From the NCBI GenBank assembly GCA_945883425.1, contig CAMCXM010000001.1:43424-107423 (forward strand): a stretch of 64,000 nucleotides of DNA, written 5' to 3'. Position numbers and translations under genes: made by a program. Shown piece by piece: positions 6,266 through 34,504 of the stretch (its first letter is position 1; each line of letters starts with the position of its first letter). The notes beneath the pieces are model-generated. The model had not been told where the DNA came from. It made no database searches and worked only from the letters and a program-made list of their open reading frames with translations. The DNA comes from Spirosoma fluviale. GTDB lineage: Bacteria > Bacteroidota > Bacteroidia > Cytophagales > Flexibacteraceae.

Positions 6266-8122
6266 TTATTTCGGATCTCCTGTTTTTTGAAACAGTTGGT
6301 TATGGATCAGACCTTGTCGGTAATACTGCACCCGGCTGATGAGAACCGTCCGTAACCCTGTCGGTTTGGGTCTGTTATTTACCGCCTGCCAGAGCCAGCC
6401 TTCTACCGGGTCGATTGCGCTCCAGCTCAGGTTTCCGTCGGGATGAAACAAATGGTATTTCTGATCCTGAAATACGATCGGATAGCCGGGATTCGTTGCC
6501 CGCAAAGAATTACCCAGTTTGTTTTCATACAATGACTTCGATCCAACCAGATCGGAGATACCGGGCGCCAGATCGAGATGCTGCACCCAACGACTGGTAT
6601 CGGCCTTCAGTTGAACGGAAGGCGAAAAGAGCACCAGTGGAACATCGTAAGAACCAACCAGTCCGGCATAGTTTGGATCGATGCTGGCCTGTGTATGATC
6701 GGCCGTGAGGACAAACAAGGTGTTGGCAAACCAGGGTTTGGTCCGGGCAGTTTCAAAAAACCGGCGGAGGGCAAAATCGGAATAGGAAATAGCTTCGTGC
6801 ACCGGAAGCGGACCTTTTTTGAACCGTCCTTTATACCGATCGGGAATGGTATAGGGCTGGTGCGAGCTGAGGGTAAAAATGCCGGCGGCAAAGGGTTGTT
6901 TGAAACCATCCAGCCGGTTGGAAACAAACTGAAGGAAAGGCTCATCAAAAATGCCCCAGTTGCCATCGAAATCCTTCTGATCGGGATATTCGTTCATCCC
7001 GTAATAGGCATCAAAACCAGCCACTTTACTGAACAGATCAAAGGCCATGGTGCCGTTTTTTCCGCCGTGGAAAAAGGCTGTCTGGTATCCGTCCTTTTTC
7101 AAACGGGTTCCTAAACCTTCCATCCGGATGGAGAGATAGGGCGAGGTGGCAAAGGCTTCGTCCATCCAGGCAGGAACGGATGCGAGAATGGAAGGCAGAG
7201 CATCTCTCGACGTCCTGCCATTGGCAAAATGATGGGGAAAGTAAATTCCAGTCCGTGCCAGAGAATCGAGGAAGGGTGTGTAGCTGGTGACGTTTCCTTC
7301 GAGCCCGGTGTATTCGGTGGCAAAACTTTCGAGGATGATGAGCACCACATTGTGTCCTTTCAGCGGAGCCGTACCCGGTTGATTTTGTGGAAACAAAGAG
7401 GCACTCTCCGATTCGCTCAACCACTTCTGATCCGGAAGGGGTTTGAATTCCGTCGATTTAAAAAGAAGAAAAGGCGTAGTGAGAACGGCATGACCTGCTT
7501 CGGATTGGGGAAGTGTAAATGCTTCGCCCGGAAGCATAGGTTTTACCTGGAACGAATTCCGGATCATCATTACCCCTAAACCAACGCAGACCAGAACCTG
7601 AAAAAAGGCGGTCAAAGGTTTTGAATGTTCTCCGGAAGGACGGGACGGAAAGGAGCGGTACAATCCAAAAATCATCAGCCCGAAAACCGGAACCATGGGC
7701 CAGTAATGCACCATCAGTTGCGGAAGTTGCCGAAGCGAATCGGCCAGTAGAAACTCGAGTGTGGTGTAGGAAGTCCGCCGGTTGTTGAATGCAAAAAACG
7801 GCACGTCAATGGCATTGAGGAGAAGGAACAAGCTGTTGGCAACCACAAATATCCATTTCAGAATTCCGTACACATTCCGGTGAAAGTGGAACGGAAGCAG
7901 GAGGATCACCCAAAAAACTAAATCGATGCTGGCAATGGTGGAGGCATCAAAACGAAGCGACAGAATGACGAATGAAAACCAGTCTGATACAGTCAGCTTT
8001 GCGAACATTTCGGGGTACATCACCACAAACGCCACCCGGCAAAGCCAGTAGAATACCAGCACCATGATGGTTGGAAGGCCGATCCAACGTAGGTTTGCAG
8101 GAAATATCCAGTGAGGTAGCAA
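6266..8122 (-). CDS. LTA synthase family sulfatase / phosphoglycerol transferase-like membrane protein
   Basis: N-terminal TM helices then VVLIILESFATEY, FANGRTSRDALPSILASVP, FFHGGKNGTM, LFVLTADHTQ. ORF track start (8293) would overlap the GT2 gene antisense; start set to TTG 8122, alternative ATG 8065. Confidence 0.8.
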   Translation of the reverse strand: MLPHWIFPANLRWIGLPTIMVLVFYWLCRVAFVVMYPEMFAKLTVSDWFSFVILSLRFDASTIASIDLVFWVILLLPFHFHRNVYGILKWIFVVANSLFLLLNAIDVPFFAFNNRRTSYTTLEFLLADSLRQLPQLMVHYWPMVPVFGLMIFGLYRSFPSRPSGEHSKPLTAFFQVLVCVGLGVMMIRNSFQVKPMLPGEAFTLPQSEAGHAVLTTPFLLFKSTEFKPLPDQKWLSESESASLFPQNQPGTAPLKGHNVVLIILESFATEYTGLEGNVTSYTPFLDSLARTGIYFPHHFANGRTSRDALPSILASVPAWMDEAFATSPYLSIRMEGLGTRLKKDGYQTAFFHGGKNGTMAFDLFSKVAGFDAYYGMNEYPDQKDFDGNWGIFDEPFLQFVSNRLDGFKQPFAAGIFTLSSHQPYTIPDRYKGRFKKGPLPVHEAISYSDFALRRFFETARTKPWFANTLFVLTADHTQASIDPNYAGLVGSYDVPLVLFSPSVQLKADTSRWVQHLDLAPGISDLVGSKSLYENKLGNSLRATNPGYPIVFQDQKYHLFHPDGNLSWSAIDPVEGWLWQAVNNRPKPTGLRTVLISRVQYYRQGLIHNQLFQKTGDPK

Positions 8123-8128
8123 TCCGGT

Positions 8129-9163
8129 ATGCAGAATGAAGCCGCAAAAATGGGGGAAAATGTTGGGGAATGGCCCTTCGTATCTGTTTTTGTCGCCGCC
8201 CGCAACGAAGAACACAACCTCGAAGCCTGTCTGCGTTCCCTCCAAACCCAGCAATACCCCGGAAATTTTGAAGTCTGGATCGGAGACGATCATTCAACGG
8301 ACGGAACCGCATTGATTGGAAATGCGTTTTCTCAGCGAGACAGCCGGTTTCATTTTCTTTCGGTCCCCGACCCAAACAGCCATGTAAAGGGCAAAGCTTT
8401 GGCACTGGCCTGCATGGCGAAAGAAGCGAAAGGCGAAATCTTTCTGGTCTGTGATGCCGATATGACCATGCCTCCGACCTGGATGCAGGCCATGATTTCG
8501 GGAATGCAGCGGGAAAATGTGGACATGGTAAACGGCACCACGGCCACAAAAGGCGACACCATTTTTTCGGCTCTACAGGCCATCGACTGGCTCATTCCCC
8601 AGGCGACGTTTTCCTGGCTGAGCCGGTTTGACATCACTTACACGGCGATGGGCAACAACATGGGCATCACCCTGAAAGCCTATGAAGCCACGGGAGGATA
8701 CTTCGAACTGCCCTTTTCCCTGACGGAAGATTTCGAGTTGTTCCAGAAGGCCCGGTCGCTGGGTTTCCGGCTCCGTCATTTGTACCGCACCGACGTGTTC
8801 GGCATCTCGGCTCCCCAGAAAAAACCATCCGACTGGCTGCAGCAACACGTCCGCTGGATGGTGGGTTTCGACCAGCTTCCCTTCCGGCAACAGTGGGTTT
8901 TTTATGCCCAGCTGCTGTTTTATCCCGTTTTGATACTGTCCTTTTTTATGGGGCTTCCGGTGTTAAGAGACAGCCTGATGCTGATGTGGTTGGGTAAATT
9001 TTTGTACAATGGTTACCTGCTGGTGGGCATCCGTCAGTTTCATTTACTGACCTGGCTTCCGTTGTATGAAATTCTGTTTTGGCCTGCCTATATATCCTGT
9101 TGGGTGAAGTATCGGTTTTCAAAAGAAATTCATTGGAAAGGACGGAGCTGGAAATCCGGTTAA
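8129..9163 (+). CDS. Family 2 glycosyltransferase, membrane-associated
   Basis: PFVSVFVAARNEEHNLEACLRSL, WIGDDHSTDGT, VCDADMTMPPTW, QQHVRWMVGFDQLPFRQQ; C-terminal TM helices. Confidence 0.88.
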   Translation: MQNEAAKMGENVGEWPFVSVFVAARNEEHNLEACLRSLQTQQYPGNFEVWIGDDHSTDGTALIGNAFSQRDSRFHFLSVPDPNSHVKGKALALACMAKEAKGEIFLVCDADMTMPPTWMQAMISGMQRENVDMVNGTTATKGDTIFSALQAIDWLIPQATFSWLSRFDITYTAMGNNMGITLKAYEATGGYFELPFSLTEDFELFQKARSLGFRLRHLYRTDVFGISAPQKKPSDWLQQHVRWMVGFDQLPFRQQWVFYAQLLFYPVLILSFFMGLPVLRDSLMLMWLGKFLYNGYLLVGIRQFHLLTWLPLYEILFWPAYISCWVKYRFSKEIHWKGRSWKSG

Positions 9164-27205: not shown

Positions 27206-30200
27206 ATGAAAAAACGTTCTACAAAGCCAAACCCAGGCACGACAATCCAGAGAATGAAACGAGCATCCTTTTTCCTGTTCGCATTCTGTGTCATCCTTTT
27301 TTCTACGCAGGCATTCTCTCAAATCCGGGTAATCAATCCAAGTAATGCCGGAGTTTCACTGGCTGGAAACAGCTCTTATACCGTGAGATGGTCGAAAGGA
27401 GGAACTACGTTTTCCAGAGTGAAGATCAAATTATCAATAGACGGTGGGGTGACGTTCCCTTTTTTGCTGGTAAACAATACGCCAAATACAGCAACTGACA
27501 CCAGTGAAAACATCACGGTACCTGGTTTAATCACGAGCCAGGCCAGAATCCGGATTACCAATCAGGCCGATTCAACCGTAGGTGATGTGTCTGACAATAA
27601 TTTTGAGATTACAGGCTATTGCTGGCCATGGAGTGTGAGTTGTACAAATAACTTTATCCAGAATTTTACGGTCGGTACTCTTAACAATTCAAGTACCTGT
27701 TCTACCCGAGGATATGTTTCAAACACACCATCCGGAACCCGTACAACCAATCTTTATACCGGCTCTAAGGTGCCGTTCACTCTAAAAACCAGCAAAACCA
27801 ACATCAATATGGGGGTGGCCATCTGGTGTGACTTCAATGGAGATAAAGATTTCAGTGATGCCGGAGAATTCTTGTATGCCAGTTCTACCCTCGATACAAC
27901 CCACCGTGATTCCATTTCTATTCCATCCGATGTAACAGCGGGTTTAAAGGTGTTACGAGTCAGAACCGTGCGGGCAACATTGCTGTCATCTTCCGATTAT
28001 TGCACTTTTTTCAATACCGGGGGAGAAATAGAAGACTATCAGGTTACCGTCGTCTCACTTCCAGGTTCAGGCCCGATTGTTGTTCGGATTCCAAACGCTA
28101 CCGGAATCACGCTGGACAACAATACATCGTATACCGTTCGTTGGTCGAAAGGAGGAACTCTATATGATAAAGTAAAAATCAAGCTGTCGGAAGATGGGGG
28201 AGCCACCTATCCTTACACACTTGTCAGCAATTCAAACAATCTCACCACTGATACTTCTGAAGCCATAACGGTTCCTGGTATTATCACTTCAACTGCCAGA
28301 ATCCGCATTGAAAACCAGAATGATTCTACCGTCGGAGACAATTCGGATAATAATTTCACCATTCGTGGCTATTGCTGGCCATGGAACACCAGTTGCACAA
28401 ACAACTTTATTCAAAGTTTCACTGTCAACTCTCTTAACAGCACAAGCACCTGTTCATCAAGAGGATATATTAATTACAACACCTCCAGAACCACAACATT
28501 GTATTCAGGAGAATCCTATGCCTTTACATTAAAGACCTCAAAAACAAATACTGACATGGGTGTTGGTATCTGGTGCGATTTCAATGGAGACTTTGACTTT
28601 GATGATTCCGGCGAATTCCTGTATGGCAGCCCTACACTGGATACAACATTCTCCGGAACCATTTCGATACCGTCCGGCCTGACGCTTGCCAATCGCAGAT
28701 TGAGAATCCGTACCGTACGTGGCAATCTTCTTGGTGCTTCCAATTATTGCACATTTTACAATACCGGTGGAGAGATAGAAGATTACTCTGTTGCCATTGA
28801 TCAGATTATTGGGGCTGGGCCATTGGTGGTTCGTAACCCAAATGATGCCAGCGTAACGATGACATCGAATGGTAGCTATACCGTAAGATGGTCGAAAGCC
28901 AGCACTACCTATGATAAAGTGAAAATCAAATTCTCAGATGACGGAGGTTTAACCTATCCCTACCTTTTGGTAAACAACACACCCAACACTTCTGCGGATA
29001 CTTCAGAGGCGATACTTGTACCAGGAATTACCACCACACAGGGAAGAATTCAGATTACAAATCAAAGTGATTCAACCATTGGGGACGTTTCAGACAATAA
29101 TTTTACGATTACTGGTTACTGCTGGCCATGGAACACCAGTTGTACAAACAACTACATTCGTTCAGTAGTGGTAAATACACTTAACAGCACGAGTACCTGT
29201 TCGACCCGAGGATACGTGAACAATGCAGCAAGCGGTACAAGAACGACTACATTATACCAGGGCCAGTCATATCCCATCACAATTAAAACGTCGAAAACAA
29301 ACAATATGGGTGTTGCCGTCTGGTGCGATTTCAACAGCGATTTTGACTTTGACGACGCAGGAGAATTTCTGTTTGCCAGCAGTAGTCTGGATACTACTTT
29401 CAGCGGAAGCGTAACAATTCCGGCAGATGCGCCACTGGGTGCCCGTCGGTTCCGTGTTAGGACAATCAACAACACCATTCTGTCATCAACAGACTATTGT
29501 GCTTTTAATAACTCAGGAAGTGAAATTGAAGATTATACGATTACCATTGACGAAACTACAGGCATTGGACCTCTGACAGTTACCACTCCAAATACAGGCG
29601 GGTTATCTCTGGCCACAAACACTACTTATGCTGTTCGTTGGAAAAAAGGAAACAGCACGTATGACAAGGTCCGAATCAAATTCTCTGCTGATGGGGGAGC
29701 TACATTCCCTTATCTACTTGTAAACAACACACCGAATCTCTCTTCTGACACAGCTGAGAATATTATTGTTCCAGGTATCATTACCACACAAGGACGGATC
29801 CGGGTATCCAACCAAAATGACTCAACTGTTTCTGATATGTCAGACAACAACTTCACCATTACGGGTTATTGCTGGCCATGGAGTATGAGTTGTACCAATA
29901 GTTTTCTTCGGAAAATTACCCTGAACACACTCAGTACAACCAATACCTGTGCAACAAGGGCATACAGTTCAGCTGCCGCATCCGGAGCCAACACTACCAC
30001 ATTGTACACAGGGCAATCGTATCCGTTTACTGTGAAAACATCGAAGACCAGCCTCACTCAAGGAGTCGCCATCTGGTGTGATTACAACAATGATCTGGAT
30101 TTTGACGATGACGGCGAATTGCTGTATACGAGTTCAAGCCTCGATACTTCGTTCACGGGTTCCATAACCATTCCTTCAGACATAGCGGTAGGAGCCAAAC

Positions 30201-32980
30201 GACTGAGAGTCAGAACAGTAAATAATCAATTACTTAATGCTTCGCAGTCCTGTACATTCTTTAACACAGGTGGAGAAATTGAAGATTTCACCATTACCAT
30301 TGATGTGATTCCGGGAGTTGGTCCTATAGTTGTCCGTACTCCGACTGCAGCTGGTATTTCACTCGCTTCCAATTCAAGTTATACCGTCCGCTGGGCGAAA
30401 GGGGCCACAACTTTTCCTACCGCCAAGGTGAAACTTTCGGTAGATGGAGGTTCCACTTACCCATATACCCTGGCTGAAAATGTATCAAACGCATCAATCG
30501 AAAACAGCACTTCCGTTGTCGTTCCCGGCATCATTACTACCCAGGCTAAAATCCGTGTATCGGATCAGAATGATTCCACCAGTAATGATGAATCAGACAA
30601 CAACTTCACCATTACGGGTTATTGCTGGCCATGGGGAATGAGCTGTACCAACAATAGCATCAATGCATTTACCCTGAATACACTAAGCCGAAACAGTGGT
30701 TGCAGTGTAACAAGGGGATATACGGTTGTTGCCGCTACTGGAACAAGCACAACCACCATGCAACGTGGTCTTACATATCCATTTACCGTCAGTACCAGCA
30801 CGGCAAGCCCTAGTATGGCGGTTGGTATCTGGTGCGACTTTAACAACGATCTGGATTTTGATGATTCTGGTGAATTCCTTTATGGAAGCCCATCTTTCGG
30901 AACCAGCTTCTCGGGCAACATTACCATTCCCGGAAACACAGCCACCGGACAAAGAATACTTCGGGTGAGAACCGTTCGGGGATCGTTGCTCACTGCGAGT
31001 GATGCCTGCACATTCTTCAATACCGGAGGTGAAATCGAAGATTATACGATCACAATCGATCAGCCAACCATCGTAATTACTTCTCCACTTGCGGAGATCT
31101 GTCCAGGAACAAATATCTCCGTTGCGTTCACTACCACCGGAACATTCCTGGCCGGCAACTACTTTCAGGTACAGCTTTCCAATTCCAGTGGTGTTTTTGG
31201 TGCTGGAACGTCTGCTTTGGCAAATGGAGCTTCTTCGCCCATTACCTGCCATGTCGGAATCGGAACAGCTTCCGGAACGTACCGTCTGAGGGTAGTCGCT
31301 GCCACTCCGGCGCCCGCTCTTTTCGGAACCAACTCTGACTATTTCACCATCCGGTCTAAGCCTTCAACACCGACTTCTACAAATGGCAGCCGTTGCGGAA
31401 CGGGAACTGTGACCCTTTCTGCCGCAGGATGTTCAACCATCGAATGGTACGATGCTTTAACAAAAGGAAATCTGATTGGAAGCGGTACTTCTTTTGTAAC
31501 GCCATCCATCAGTTCAACTGCGAATTATTTTGCGACCTGTATTGATGCCCAGGGTTGCCAGAGTTTGCGGAAGCAGACAAGTGCTGTAGTAAATCCACTT
31601 CCATCGATTACCAGTTTCAATCCAACTTCAGGAAGTGTTGGATTTACAAACGTGGTTATTTCAGGTACGGCATTCAGCGTGGTTGATTCTGTGGTGTTTT
31701 CCGGAAATGCAAAAGCACAGATCATTTCTAAAACTTCAACCAGCATTACCGTAAAAACTCCGGTGAATGCTGCATCCGGAACCATCCGTGTTTACACTCC
31801 TTGCGGGATGATTGTAAGCTCTGGTTCATTTACAGCAGTCGTTCCCAGCATTGCAACTCCGGTGATATCTCTCGCTTCGGGAACCTATCCTTCGAGCACA
31901 ACCACCACACTGTCATGTGCGACAACCGGTGCCGATATTTACTACACTTTAAATGGTGTTACTCCAGATCCTAATAATCCGGTAACTATACTCTATACAG
32001 GCGATCCTATCTTTATCGGTGTTGGCCTTACTTTGAAGGCAATCGGTTACAAACAAGGTTGGACAACCTCAGGTATTGCAACAGCCACTTATGCCATCAC
32101 CACCCCAACCATTGTATCGACGCCGGTTATTTCACCTGCGAGCGGTACTTATACAGGAGGTCAGGTGTTGACCATAACTTGTTCTACGCCTCAATCATTG
32201 ATTTATTTTACTTTGAACGGACAGGAGCCAATAATGGATGGGAACACTCCAATCCGCTATCTTGGACCAATTACCGTTGCTGAAAATGTTTCAGTGAAAG
32301 CCATTGGCGTACGCGATGGATGGTCTTCCAGTCCGGCTGCCTGGTCAGAATTGTTCATTTCAGGTGCGAGTACGCTTAGTGCCTGCACATTTGATCCGGT
32401 GCCAGGCACATACAGCGGAGCCCAATCAGTGACCATCAACAATGCAGATCCGTCGGCTCAAATTTACTATACCATTGACGGTACTGATCCATACCGTTAT
32501 CTGCCTCTTGCAAAACCATATGCAGGTCCGGTTGCCATTAATTCCAGCCTTACCCTAAAAGCTTCGGCCTACAGAGACGGATTTGGTGACAGCCCAAGAG
32601 CAGTTGGTAATTATACCATCGGAGCCGTAAGGATGGCCGTTGATCAATCAACACCAGCTTATTACACTGAACCATCTGGTCCGGCGTATTCTTCCGGAAG
32701 TAATTCGTCCTCACCGTTTCCTGCCAATAGCAATGAAATGATGGTTTCTCTTTATCCGAATCCGACAAATGGAATTTTGTTTATTGATTTCGGATCCCGA
32801 AAAGAGAATATGAAAATCACCATTCTCAATGTTTTGGGTCAGGCAGTTAATGTGGTGGAAACAGAAGGTGCTTCATTCGGTGCCGCCTTGAATCTGTCAG
32901 AAAACAAACCGGGAGTTTATATTGTCCGCATTTCCGACTCAAACGGAAACCAGGTGGAGAAAAAAGTTGTACTCCAGTAA
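27206..32980 (+). CDS. T9SS-secreted surface protein: five GEVED-type repeat units fused to Ig-like, IPT/TIG-like and chitobiase-C-terminal-like modules, type A sorting domain
   Basis: Five copies of GYCWPW...SCTN...CDFN.D.DF.D.GE...FNTGGEIEDY; C-terminal region parallels the entire upstream protein; MVSLYPNPTNGILFIDFG...VEKKVVLQ. Confidence 0.85.
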   Translation: MKKRSTKPNPGTTIQRMKRASFFLFAFCVILFSTQAFSQIRVINPSNAGVSLAGNSSYTVRWSKGGTTFSRVKIKLSIDGGVTFPFLLVNNTPNTATDTSENITVPGLITSQARIRITNQADSTVGDVSDNNFEITGYCWPWSVSCTNNFIQNFTVGTLNNSSTCSTRGYVSNTPSGTRTTNLYTGSKVPFTLKTSKTNINMGVAIWCDFNGDKDFSDAGEFLYASSTLDTTHRDSISIPSDVTAGLKVLRVRTVRATLLSSSDYCTFFNTGGEIEDYQVTVVSLPGSGPIVVRIPNATGITLDNNTSYTVRWSKGGTLYDKVKIKLSEDGGATYPYTLVSNSNNLTTDTSEAITVPGIITSTARIRIENQNDSTVGDNSDNNFTIRGYCWPWNTSCTNNFIQSFTVNSLNSTSTCSSRGYINYNTSRTTTLYSGESYAFTLKTSKTNTDMGVGIWCDFNGDFDFDDSGEFLYGSPTLDTTFSGTISIPSGLTLANRRLRIRTVRGNLLGASNYCTFYNTGGEIEDYSVAIDQIIGAGPLVVRNPNDASVTMTSNGSYTVRWSKASTTYDKVKIKFSDDGGLTYPYLLVNNTPNTSADTSEAILVPGITTTQGRIQITNQSDSTIGDVSDNNFTITGYCWPWNTSCTNNYIRSVVVNTLNSTSTCSTRGYVNNAASGTRTTTLYQGQSYPITIKTSKTNNMGVAVWCDFNSDFDFDDAGEFLFASSSLDTTFSGSVTIPADAPLGARRFRVRTINNTILSSTDYCAFNNSGSEIEDYTITIDETTGIGPLTVTTPNTGGLSLATNTTYAVRWKKGNSTYDKVRIKFSADGGATFPYLLVNNTPNLSSDTAENIIVPGIITTQGRIRVSNQNDSTVSDMSDNNFTITGYCWPWSMSCTNSFLRKITLNTLSTTNTCATRAYSSAAASGANTTTLYTGQSYPFTVKTSKTSLTQGVAIWCDYNNDLDFDDDGELLYTSSSLDTSFTGSITIPSDIAVGAKRLRVRTVNNQLLNASQSCTFFNTGGEIEDFTITIDVIPGVGPIVVRTPTAAGISLASNSSYTVRWAKGATTFPTAKVKLSVDGGSTYPYTLAENVSNASIENSTSVVVPGIITTQAKIRVSDQNDSTSNDESDNNFTITGYCWPWGMSCTNNSINAFTLNTLSRNSGCSVTRGYTVVAATGTSTTTMQRGLTYPFTVSTSTASPSMAVGIWCDFNNDLDFDDSGEFLYGSPSFGTSFSGNITIPGNTATGQRILRVRTVRGSLLTASDACTFFNTGGEIEDYTITIDQPTIVITSPLAEICPGTNISVAFTTTGTFLAGNYFQVQLSNSSGVFGAGTSALANGASSPITCHVGIGTASGTYRLRVVAATPAPALFGTNSDYFTIRSKPSTPTSTNGSRCGTGTVTLSAAGCSTIEWYDALTKGNLIGSGTSFVTPSISSTANYFATCIDAQGCQSLRKQTSAVVNPLPSITSFNPTSGSVGFTNVVISGTAFSVVDSVVFSGNAKAQIISKTSTSITVKTPVNAASGTIRVYTPCGMIVSSGSFTAVVPSIATPVISLASGTYPSSTTTTLSCATTGADIYYTLNGVTPDPNNPVTILYTGDPIFIGVGLTLKAIGYKQGWTTSGIATATYAITTPTIVSTPVISPASGTYTGGQVLTITCSTPQSLIYFTLNGQEPIMDGNTPIRYLGPITVAENVSVKAIGVRDGWSSSPAAWSELFISGASTLSACTFDPVPGTYSGAQSVTINNADPSAQIYYTIDGTDPYRYLPLAKPYAGPVAINSSLTLKASAYRDGFGDSPRAVGNYTIGAVRMAVDQSTPAYYTEPSGPAYSSGSNSSSPFPANSNEMMVSLYPNPTNGILFIDFGSRKENMKITILNVLGQAVNVVETEGASFGAALNLSENKPGVYIVRISDSNGNQVEKKVVLQ
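27320..31066 (+). repeat. Five in-frame GEVED-type repeat units of about 750 bp
   Basis: Unit starts IRVINP (about 27320), IVVRIP (28076), LVVRNP (28823), LTVTTP (29573), IVVRTP (30326); spacings 747, 750 and 753 bp for the exactly placed ones. Confidence 0.88.
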
Positions 32981-33000: not shown

Positions 33001-33027
33001 GGCCACCCTAAAAAGGTGGTCTTTTTT
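33001..33027 (+). terminator. Rho-independent terminator of the large T9SS gene
   Basis: GGCCACC-CTAAAAA-GGTGGTC followed by TTTTTT. Confidence 0.75.
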
Positions 33028-33029
33028 AT

Positions 33030-33225
33030 CCCAGATTCCGCATTAGGATGTTAATCGTCTGATTCACACCTATAATTTTCCCTTTCGGACAAATGAACAC
33101 GAGAGTGTGAAATTTGCGGGCGCAGCCCAATGAAATGTCTTTGAGGACGCCATAGCGTCTGGGCCATAAATGAATGTGAATCAGTCGATTTGGATTAATT
33201 GATTTTTTCTATTGCGGAATCTGGG
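33030..33225. mobile_element. MITE-like non-autonomous element, 196 bp
   Basis: Perfect 13-bp terminal inverted repeats CCCAGATTCCGCA...TGCGGAATCTGGG, further inner inverted repeat AATCGTCTGATTCACA/TGTGAATCAGTCGATT (one mismatch), flanked by TTTAT at 33025..33029 and 33226..33230; no transposase. Confidence 0.8.
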
Positions 33226-33226
33226 T

Positions 33227-34504
33227 TTATGAACCTCTTCCTAAAAAATAAGAACCCAGACTGCATTCCATACAACGCCTGGAGAGGCAGTATCCGGTGT
33301 ACAATTCATTGAGCGCCTGGCTCGTGGCAGCAGTTTCACACTCGATCCCAAAGGATGTCCACATTCGTATAACGGAATTCGGCTCACTTCGAACAGCCGA
33401 AAGCCAGTCCATCGCTTTTTCTATATAATCCGGATTCTCTTTCTCCAGGCCAATTGCCGTGAGGAAGGGCGCTAAAAAATTGATTACCAGGGAATCTTTC
33501 AAAAACGGACTCCAGGAGATAGTTCCCTTAAACGGATTCACCTCATGAAGAAAACCATCCAGAACCGGTGAAATTGAAAGAGGGCCTGGCACAAAGAAAT
33601 TGGATGGCTCCGTTTGGTTCTCTGTGAGCAATCGAAACCAGTCGGGAAGTTTATGAATCATTGAAGCCAGAATCAATACGCGATGAATCGGGAACGAGCC
33701 CGGCCGGATCCGGAATTTCTTCCAGGCAAGGGGATGAGATTCAAGCTGATGTTTATGAGCCAGAAAAAGATATTCAGACCGCAATGCCGTATGCGATTCA
33801 CCCTGATTATCCTCGTTCAGAAATCCAGCCTGTCCAAGTAAAAGCGAAAAAATCCTCTCATCATGCCAGCCCAGGCCGGCAAAAATCCTGACTGGAATGG
33901 ATTGGGCCAGCATCAACATGGGCTCTGCGTTAATTTTCAATCCCAGTGTGTGGGCAAGGGTCTGATAAAATGTTTCCTGCCAATCCTTGCCATTCAAAAG
34001 CCAGCGTTTGAGAATTTCCCGTGCCTTCCTTTCGAGTCGTTCTGTTAACACGCGTTCCTGCATGCCCGTCATCCGAATGGCTGGCACAGAATGTAGAAAC
34101 GATTCACAGGCGATGCTTTTCGGAGCGGGATTCATGAGCTCACGATACCGGAGCAGAACCTCCAACGGTATTTTATCCTTCAACTCCAGCGTAGGAACGA
34201 CGGTGCCATCCAGCCGAAAAGCTTCAGCATCTTTTTCCCAGACCACATGCAGAATGACCGATTGATAAGCCGGATCGGCTTGGTGGTTATGATCATACCA
34301 TTCACTGGCACGAACATGGATTTCAACAGATCCTATCCAATCAAGCTGATCGATGACGATTTTGGCCTGTTCAAAGTCGGGTCCTGAATTGGAGTTCCGG
34401 TAACCGGTCTTCAGAATGGTAAGTGAGGCTCCGTCCGTAAGCCGGGCATTTTGACGCGTATGCAATTGCTGCTGCCAGAGCAGGTGTAAAAAATCCTCTT
34501 TCAT
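33227..34504 (-). CDS. DUF2851 family protein
   Basis: 425 aa; KEDFLHLLWQQQLH, NSGPDFEQAKIVIDQLDWIGSVEIHVRASEWYDHNHQADPAYQSVILHVVWEKD, C-terminal Cys-rich CLSRRCMECSLGSYFLGRGS. Confidence 0.85.
   Translation of the reverse strand: MKEDFLHLLWQQQLHTRQNARLTDGASLTILKTGYRNSNSGPDFEQAKIVIDQLDWIGSVEIHVRASEWYDHNHQADPAYQSVILHVVWEKDAEAFRLDGTVVPTLELKDKIPLEVLLRYRELMNPAPKSIACESFLHSVPAIRMTGMQERVLTERLERKAREILKRWLLNGKDWQETFYQTLAHTLGLKINAEPMLMLAQSIPVRIFAGLGWHDERIFSLLLGQAGFLNEDNQGESHTALRSEYLFLAHKHQLESHPLAWKKFRIRPGSFPIHRVLILASMIHKLPDWFRLLTENQTEPSNFFVPGPLSISPVLDGFLHEVNPFKGTISWSPFLKDSLVINFLAPFLTAIGLEKENPDYIEKAMDWLSAVRSEPNSVIRMWTSFGIECETAATSQALNELYTGYCLSRRCMECSLGSYFLGRGS

Follow-up and report, generated by a model that had tools for sequence, protein, structure and literature searches.

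The 196-bp element at positions 33030-33225 of the 64,000-nucleotide stretch analysed here (the window) is a genuine MITE: it is short and non-coding, has terminal repeats and a target duplication, and occurs in dispersed copies. The sequences of its ends and of its target make it very probable that its parent belongs to the IS1380 family, a transposase of which would have moved it in trans in a near-neutral insertion. Based on genome matches and repeat analysis, it is assigned to family 1 as a 196-bp variant with two interior modules, A and B. An earlier note had described an element of this length with 13-bp perfect terminal repeats, an inner repeat and flanking TTTAT, all of which was recovered in the sequence. 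The terminal inverted repeats are 17 nt long (94%), with the outermost 13 nt perfect; the left one, CCCAGATTCCGCATTAG, occupies 33030-33046 on the plus strand and the right one, CCCAGATTCCGCAATAG(AAAAAAT), 33209-33225 on the minus strand. The two ends read CCCAGATTCCGCATTAGGATG and CCCAGATTCCGCAATAGAAAAAAT, the end type being CCCAGATTCCGCA. Nested within them, a subterminal inverted repeat has 16-nt arms with a 94% match, AATCGTCTGATTCACA at 33053-33068 (plus strand) and its partner at 33175-33190 (minus strand). TTTAT is present at 33025-33029 and again at 33226-33230.

Small hairpins fill the interior, namely ACACGAGAGTGT at 33097-33108, GGGCGCAGCCC at 33118-33128 and GACGCCATAGCGTC at 33146-33159. 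Module B (35 bp, 33094-33128), with the hairpins ACAC-GAGA-GTGT and GGGC-GCA-GCCC, is missing in 138-bp and 161-bp copies, while module A (23 bp, 33138-33160), with the hairpin GACGC-CATA-GCGTC, is missing in 138-bp and 173-bp copies and longer in 220-bp copies. Owing to the nested inverted repeats, the RNA of the element folds far better than shuffled sequences (z of -5.9 and -6.4), and a long hairpin is possible on either strand. The element shows no sign of any product: the open reading frame list contains no frame of 60 aa or more within the 196 bp, a scan for promoters and terminators called none inside it, and an Rfam search gave no family above threshold. The two interior hairpin segments and the lack of a reading frame had been noted before and were found again in the sequence. 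In transcripts, the hairpin RNA could influence the DUF2851 mRNA at its 3' end.

The insertion lies between convergent genes. On the minus strand, the DUF2851 gene (Pfam PF11013) ends with a TAA stop codon at 33227-33229, which is included in the right TTTAT copy. On the other side, gene 27206-32980 encodes a T9SS-secreted protein of 1924 aa with GEVED domains (PF20009) and a Por secretion tail (PF18962), and is followed on the plus strand, at about 33001-33029, by a hairpin and T-tract resembling an intrinsic terminator, GGCCACC..GGTGGTC-TTTTTTAT, which was read from the sequence and is absent from the output of a simple terminator scan. The left TTTAT copy ends this T-tract. When the flanks are rejoined over a single TTTAT, the pre-insertion stop codon of DUF2851 is seen to have sat within the T-tract. 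The 5-bp duplication hands each neighbour a TTTAT copy, so both genes are intact, in keeping with the proposal that stop and T-tract had each kept their function.

The element is one of many. Its own genome, a 94.5% complete draft of 3.75 Mb in 228 contigs, yielded 50 matching pieces with the element as query, and its ends occurred 43 times per strand, compared with 1 and 2 occurrences of a reversed-pattern control; the element is therefore not a chance arrangement. For a second family, whose ends are related (CCCAAATTCCGCAATAGAAAAAGC … CCTATTGCATAATCTGGG), there were 44 matching pieces. The catalogue of complete, pair-ended elements comes to at least 59, and more copies are cut by contig ends. 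About 19 of them belong to family 1, with lengths of 138, 161, 173, 196 and about 220 bp, and 35 to family 2, with lengths of 137 to 233 bp; the rest comprises one 58-bp single-end palindrome and four others with related ends. The palindrome (L040, contig 50, 12354-12411) is near-perfect and consists of just one family 1 end facing itself. Halves of different families are also joined in chimeras: family 3 with family 2 on contig 20 (L058, 12793-12943), and family 2 with part of family 1 on contigs 37 (6927-7230) and 76 (8734-9123). Chimeric elements mostly have no matching target duplications, which suggests recombination between copies. Beside a truncated family 1 copy on contig 135 (L012, about 50-150) lies a short tandem repeat, ACTGACTCCTGAGT. 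On contig 147, a copy in a 398-aa open frame was first considered to interrupt a gene, but the break lies at residue 16 of a stretch that extends the frame upstream of its likely start, and the idea was rejected. The plasmid records searched contained no copy. In the sister species G001, family 1 is represented by one degraded copy and family 2 by at least 14 copies with 82–94% identity, several of them with 5-bp duplications.

The target rule of these elements is WTWAW with a 5-bp duplication. For the 57 elements with both flanks readable, the duplication matched at 5 of 5 positions in 29, at 4 of 5 in 17 and at fewer in 11; obvious chimeras are among the elements whose flanks do not match. 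The flanking 5-mers have T at position 2 in 108 of 116 cases and A at position 4 in 111 of 116, the other positions being mostly A or T.

The earlier note had emphasised the exact placement of the element at a stop codon and at a terminator T-tract. As a description this is correct, and the family 1 copy on contig 11 (7195-7332), with an identical core, shows the same arrangement, with a TAA stop contained in ATAAA at one border and a terminator T-tract at the other. Such a coincidence could mean that the position itself is selected, the element targeting stops and terminators or being retained there for a benefit such as protection of mRNA 3' ends. Stop codons are, however, not enriched. The TAA stop of an open reading frame of at least 100 aa falls within the 5-mer in 11 of 59 copies (19%), and the same is true for 20 of 104 harmless WTWAW sites in the window, intergenic or at a stop codon (Fisher p 1.0); a binomial test against a wider WTNAW control, with a stop at 24 of 196 sites (12%), gave p 0.10. 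Copies with a terminator-like hairpin within 30 nt are somewhat over-represented (10/53 copies, 4/104 controls, Fisher p 0.005), a post hoc result from a crude caller and a single 64-kb control, which we take as weak, and within 10 nt of the border the enrichment disappears (3/53 and 3/104, p 0.4). Hence, selection for the position is improbable. The WTWAW target, the presence of T-tracts and TAA at gene ends, and the loss of intragenic insertions account for the arrangement.

The earlier note had left the parent family unnamed; it can now be given as IS1380 from ends and target, on which the link rests, while the transposase was not found in the element's own assembly. The comparison was made with complete IS1380 elements of 1.39–1.40 kb from the same order and class. 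L204 (1402 bp) has the ends CCCAAATTACGCAATAGAAAAAAA and CCCAGATTACGCATTAG (CCCAGATTACGCATTAGAAAAATG), and is flanked by the 5-mers TTTAT and ATAAA, which do not form a direct repeat. L206, with the ends CCCAAATTACGCAGTTG and CCCAAATTCCGCAGTTG, has TTTAA on both sides, and L147 (1390 bp), with the ends CCCAAAATAAGCGATAG and CCCGGATTAAGCATTAG, has a TTTAA duplication. WTWAW flanks are thus seen at L147 and L206, and also at L209 and others. In the genome G108, of the same order, IS1380 transposase fragments lie just inside ATAAA|CCCAAATTACGCATTAGG (also ATAAA|CCCAAATTACGCATTAGGG). The two ends of such elements are unlike each other (CATTAGG and CAATAGAAAAAA), and both are matched by the ends of the MITE, with 15-16 of 17 terminal bases in agreement at each. 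The left repeat is identical to the L204 end CCCAGATTACGCATTAG at 16 of 17 positions, and the right one resembles the other end, CCCAAATTACGCAATAGAAAAAAA. The transposases of L147 and L204 were assigned to IS1380 by NCBIfam (NF033539, 242 and 256 bits at a cut-off of 180) and to PF13701 by Pfam.

Searches of the 228 contigs of the 94.5% complete own assembly with PF13701, the G108 fragment or a G194 transposase as queries turned up no IS1380 transposase, and neither did a PF13701 search of four same-genus genomes. This leaves some room for another transposase family with CC-rich ends, such as IS1634 or another IS4-like family, and the IS1634 and IS4 models of NCBIfam do match the L147 and L204 transposases weakly, as distant relatives of IS1380. 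The agreement of the terminal bases and of the WTWAW flanks is, however, with elements whose transposases exceed the IS1380 cut-off, and such a parent is therefore quite unlikely. With IS1380 as the parent family, the parent may have been lost, or it may be unassembled, repeats being what drafts of this sort tend to lack; a partner transposase in the genome would be expected for an active MITE, but a stranded one, as these copies may be, need not have it.

For the insertion itself, the following course is proposed. A DDE transposase of the IS1380 family (PF13701 / NF033539) would recognise ends of the CCCRRATTNNGCAWTAG type and cut at CCC, and the ends would be joined to a WTWAW target with a 5-bp stagger, which later appears as the flanking duplication. 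Here the target would have been TTTAT, at a place where the minus-strand TAA of DUF2851 formed part of the terminator T-tract of the convergent gene. With a TTTAT copy for each gene, the insertion would have been harmless and would have been retained, its remaining effect being the hairpin-rich stretch of 196 nt placed just after the DUF2851 stop codon.

That the element is instead a fixed regulatory or termination feature of the DUF2851 3' end, an immobile 3'-UTR hairpin or bidirectional terminator, would suit the strong hairpin that either strand can form (z about -6), the convergent intergenic region beside a terminator and the post hoc excess of terminators within 30 nt, but is highly improbable given the many copies with target duplications at unrelated genes, relatives lacking the element, the missing T-tract after the big stem, and the absence of an internal terminator call and of an Rfam match. 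The relatives in question are the same-genus genomes G001, G002 and G004, in which the 3' end of DUF2851 is readable. The MITE is absent from all three, and therefore is not a fixed part of the gene; together with the many other copies in the genome, this comparison, which the earlier note had suggested along with a search for further copies, bears out its reading of the element as a MITE. The G002 locus was rejected as a true empty site, as its convergent neighbour has no blastp match to the T9SS gene. On contig 131 of G001 (L242), a family 2 copy follows directly past the terminator of a homologue of the T9SS GEVED gene (51% identity over 471 aa), so that homologous GEVED genes in two species are each followed by a different MITE.

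Compared with known systems, this is an ordinary kind of element, to which the present analysis adds the parent family, the target rule and the family census. With prokaryotic MITEs in general it shares its short, non-coding nature, terminal repeats, target duplications, intergenic location, stable structure and mutual insertion (PMC10969869). In a text search, this review did not mention IS1380 as a parent (PMC10969869), and the literature searched seems to contain few descriptions of IS1380 MITEs. MITECca01/02 of Cardinium, also Bacteroidota, are derived from ISCca4 of the IS982 family (PMC9769881). They are likewise transposase-less, of about 240 bp, with many intergenic copies and ends in common with an insertion sequence; they differ in their IS982 parent, which is present in the genome, whereas the IS1380 parent here was not found in the draft (PMC9769881). 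Members of the IS1380 family, including ISEcp1, have in common with the window MITE ends that start with CCCRRAT, 5-bp AT-rich duplications and WTWAW flanks, and for ISEcp1 direct repeats of 5 bp in AT-rich targets have been reported (PMC7527135). The MITE differs by its hairpin-rich filler between the ends and by carrying no transposase gene, and hence it is not an autonomous IS1380 insertion sequence. In this way, a sizeable group of unannotated repeats in a Bacteroidota-like genome is assigned to IS1380, with a WTWAW rule derived from dozens of natural insertions, and the TAA-containing 5-bp duplication illustrates how an insertion at a stop codon can leave the gene undamaged.

The interior is the least ordinary feature of the element. 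The length classes reflect which of several separate hairpin modules, each of 23-35 bp, a copy contains, and such interiors are a naturally occurring resource for studying how MITEs change in length. The window copy, with A and B, and the copies on contigs 11 and 84, with neither, differ at only two core bases, both at the module junction, and the contig 9 copy, with A only, agrees with four 138-bp copies at every core base. In family 2, for which L073 (649-785), L061 and L071 serve as alignment examples, core variants show no association with the modules M1, M2 and M3 (mean r2 of 0.010, 0.024 and 0.014, the null being about 0.03), while an association does exist between variants to the left and right of the M2 site (0.062 vs 0.029, p 0.0045). 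On the core tree (137 columns, mean identity 93%), which is poorly resolved, module changes are about as frequent as with shuffled labels. These observations are only suggestive of modules whose occurrence is unlinked to the sequence around them. Both exchange between copies and repeated, exact gain or loss of modules would fit. We consider it possible, though rather doubtful, that hairpin modules are gained and lost precisely and repeatedly, with the remaining sequence of the element unaltered, and that an unrecognised process edits MITE interiors faster than point mutation; if true, hairpin-guided slippage, template switching and exchange between copies would be candidates. The central hairpin of family 2 (CCTAAATCCTCTCC..GGAGAGGACTTAAGG) resembles an extragenic palindrome that other genera of the order carry outside MITEs (L255, 201-578, in G006; L256; L257) and is arranged in tandem in places, with a period of 84 and 4.5 copies in L255.
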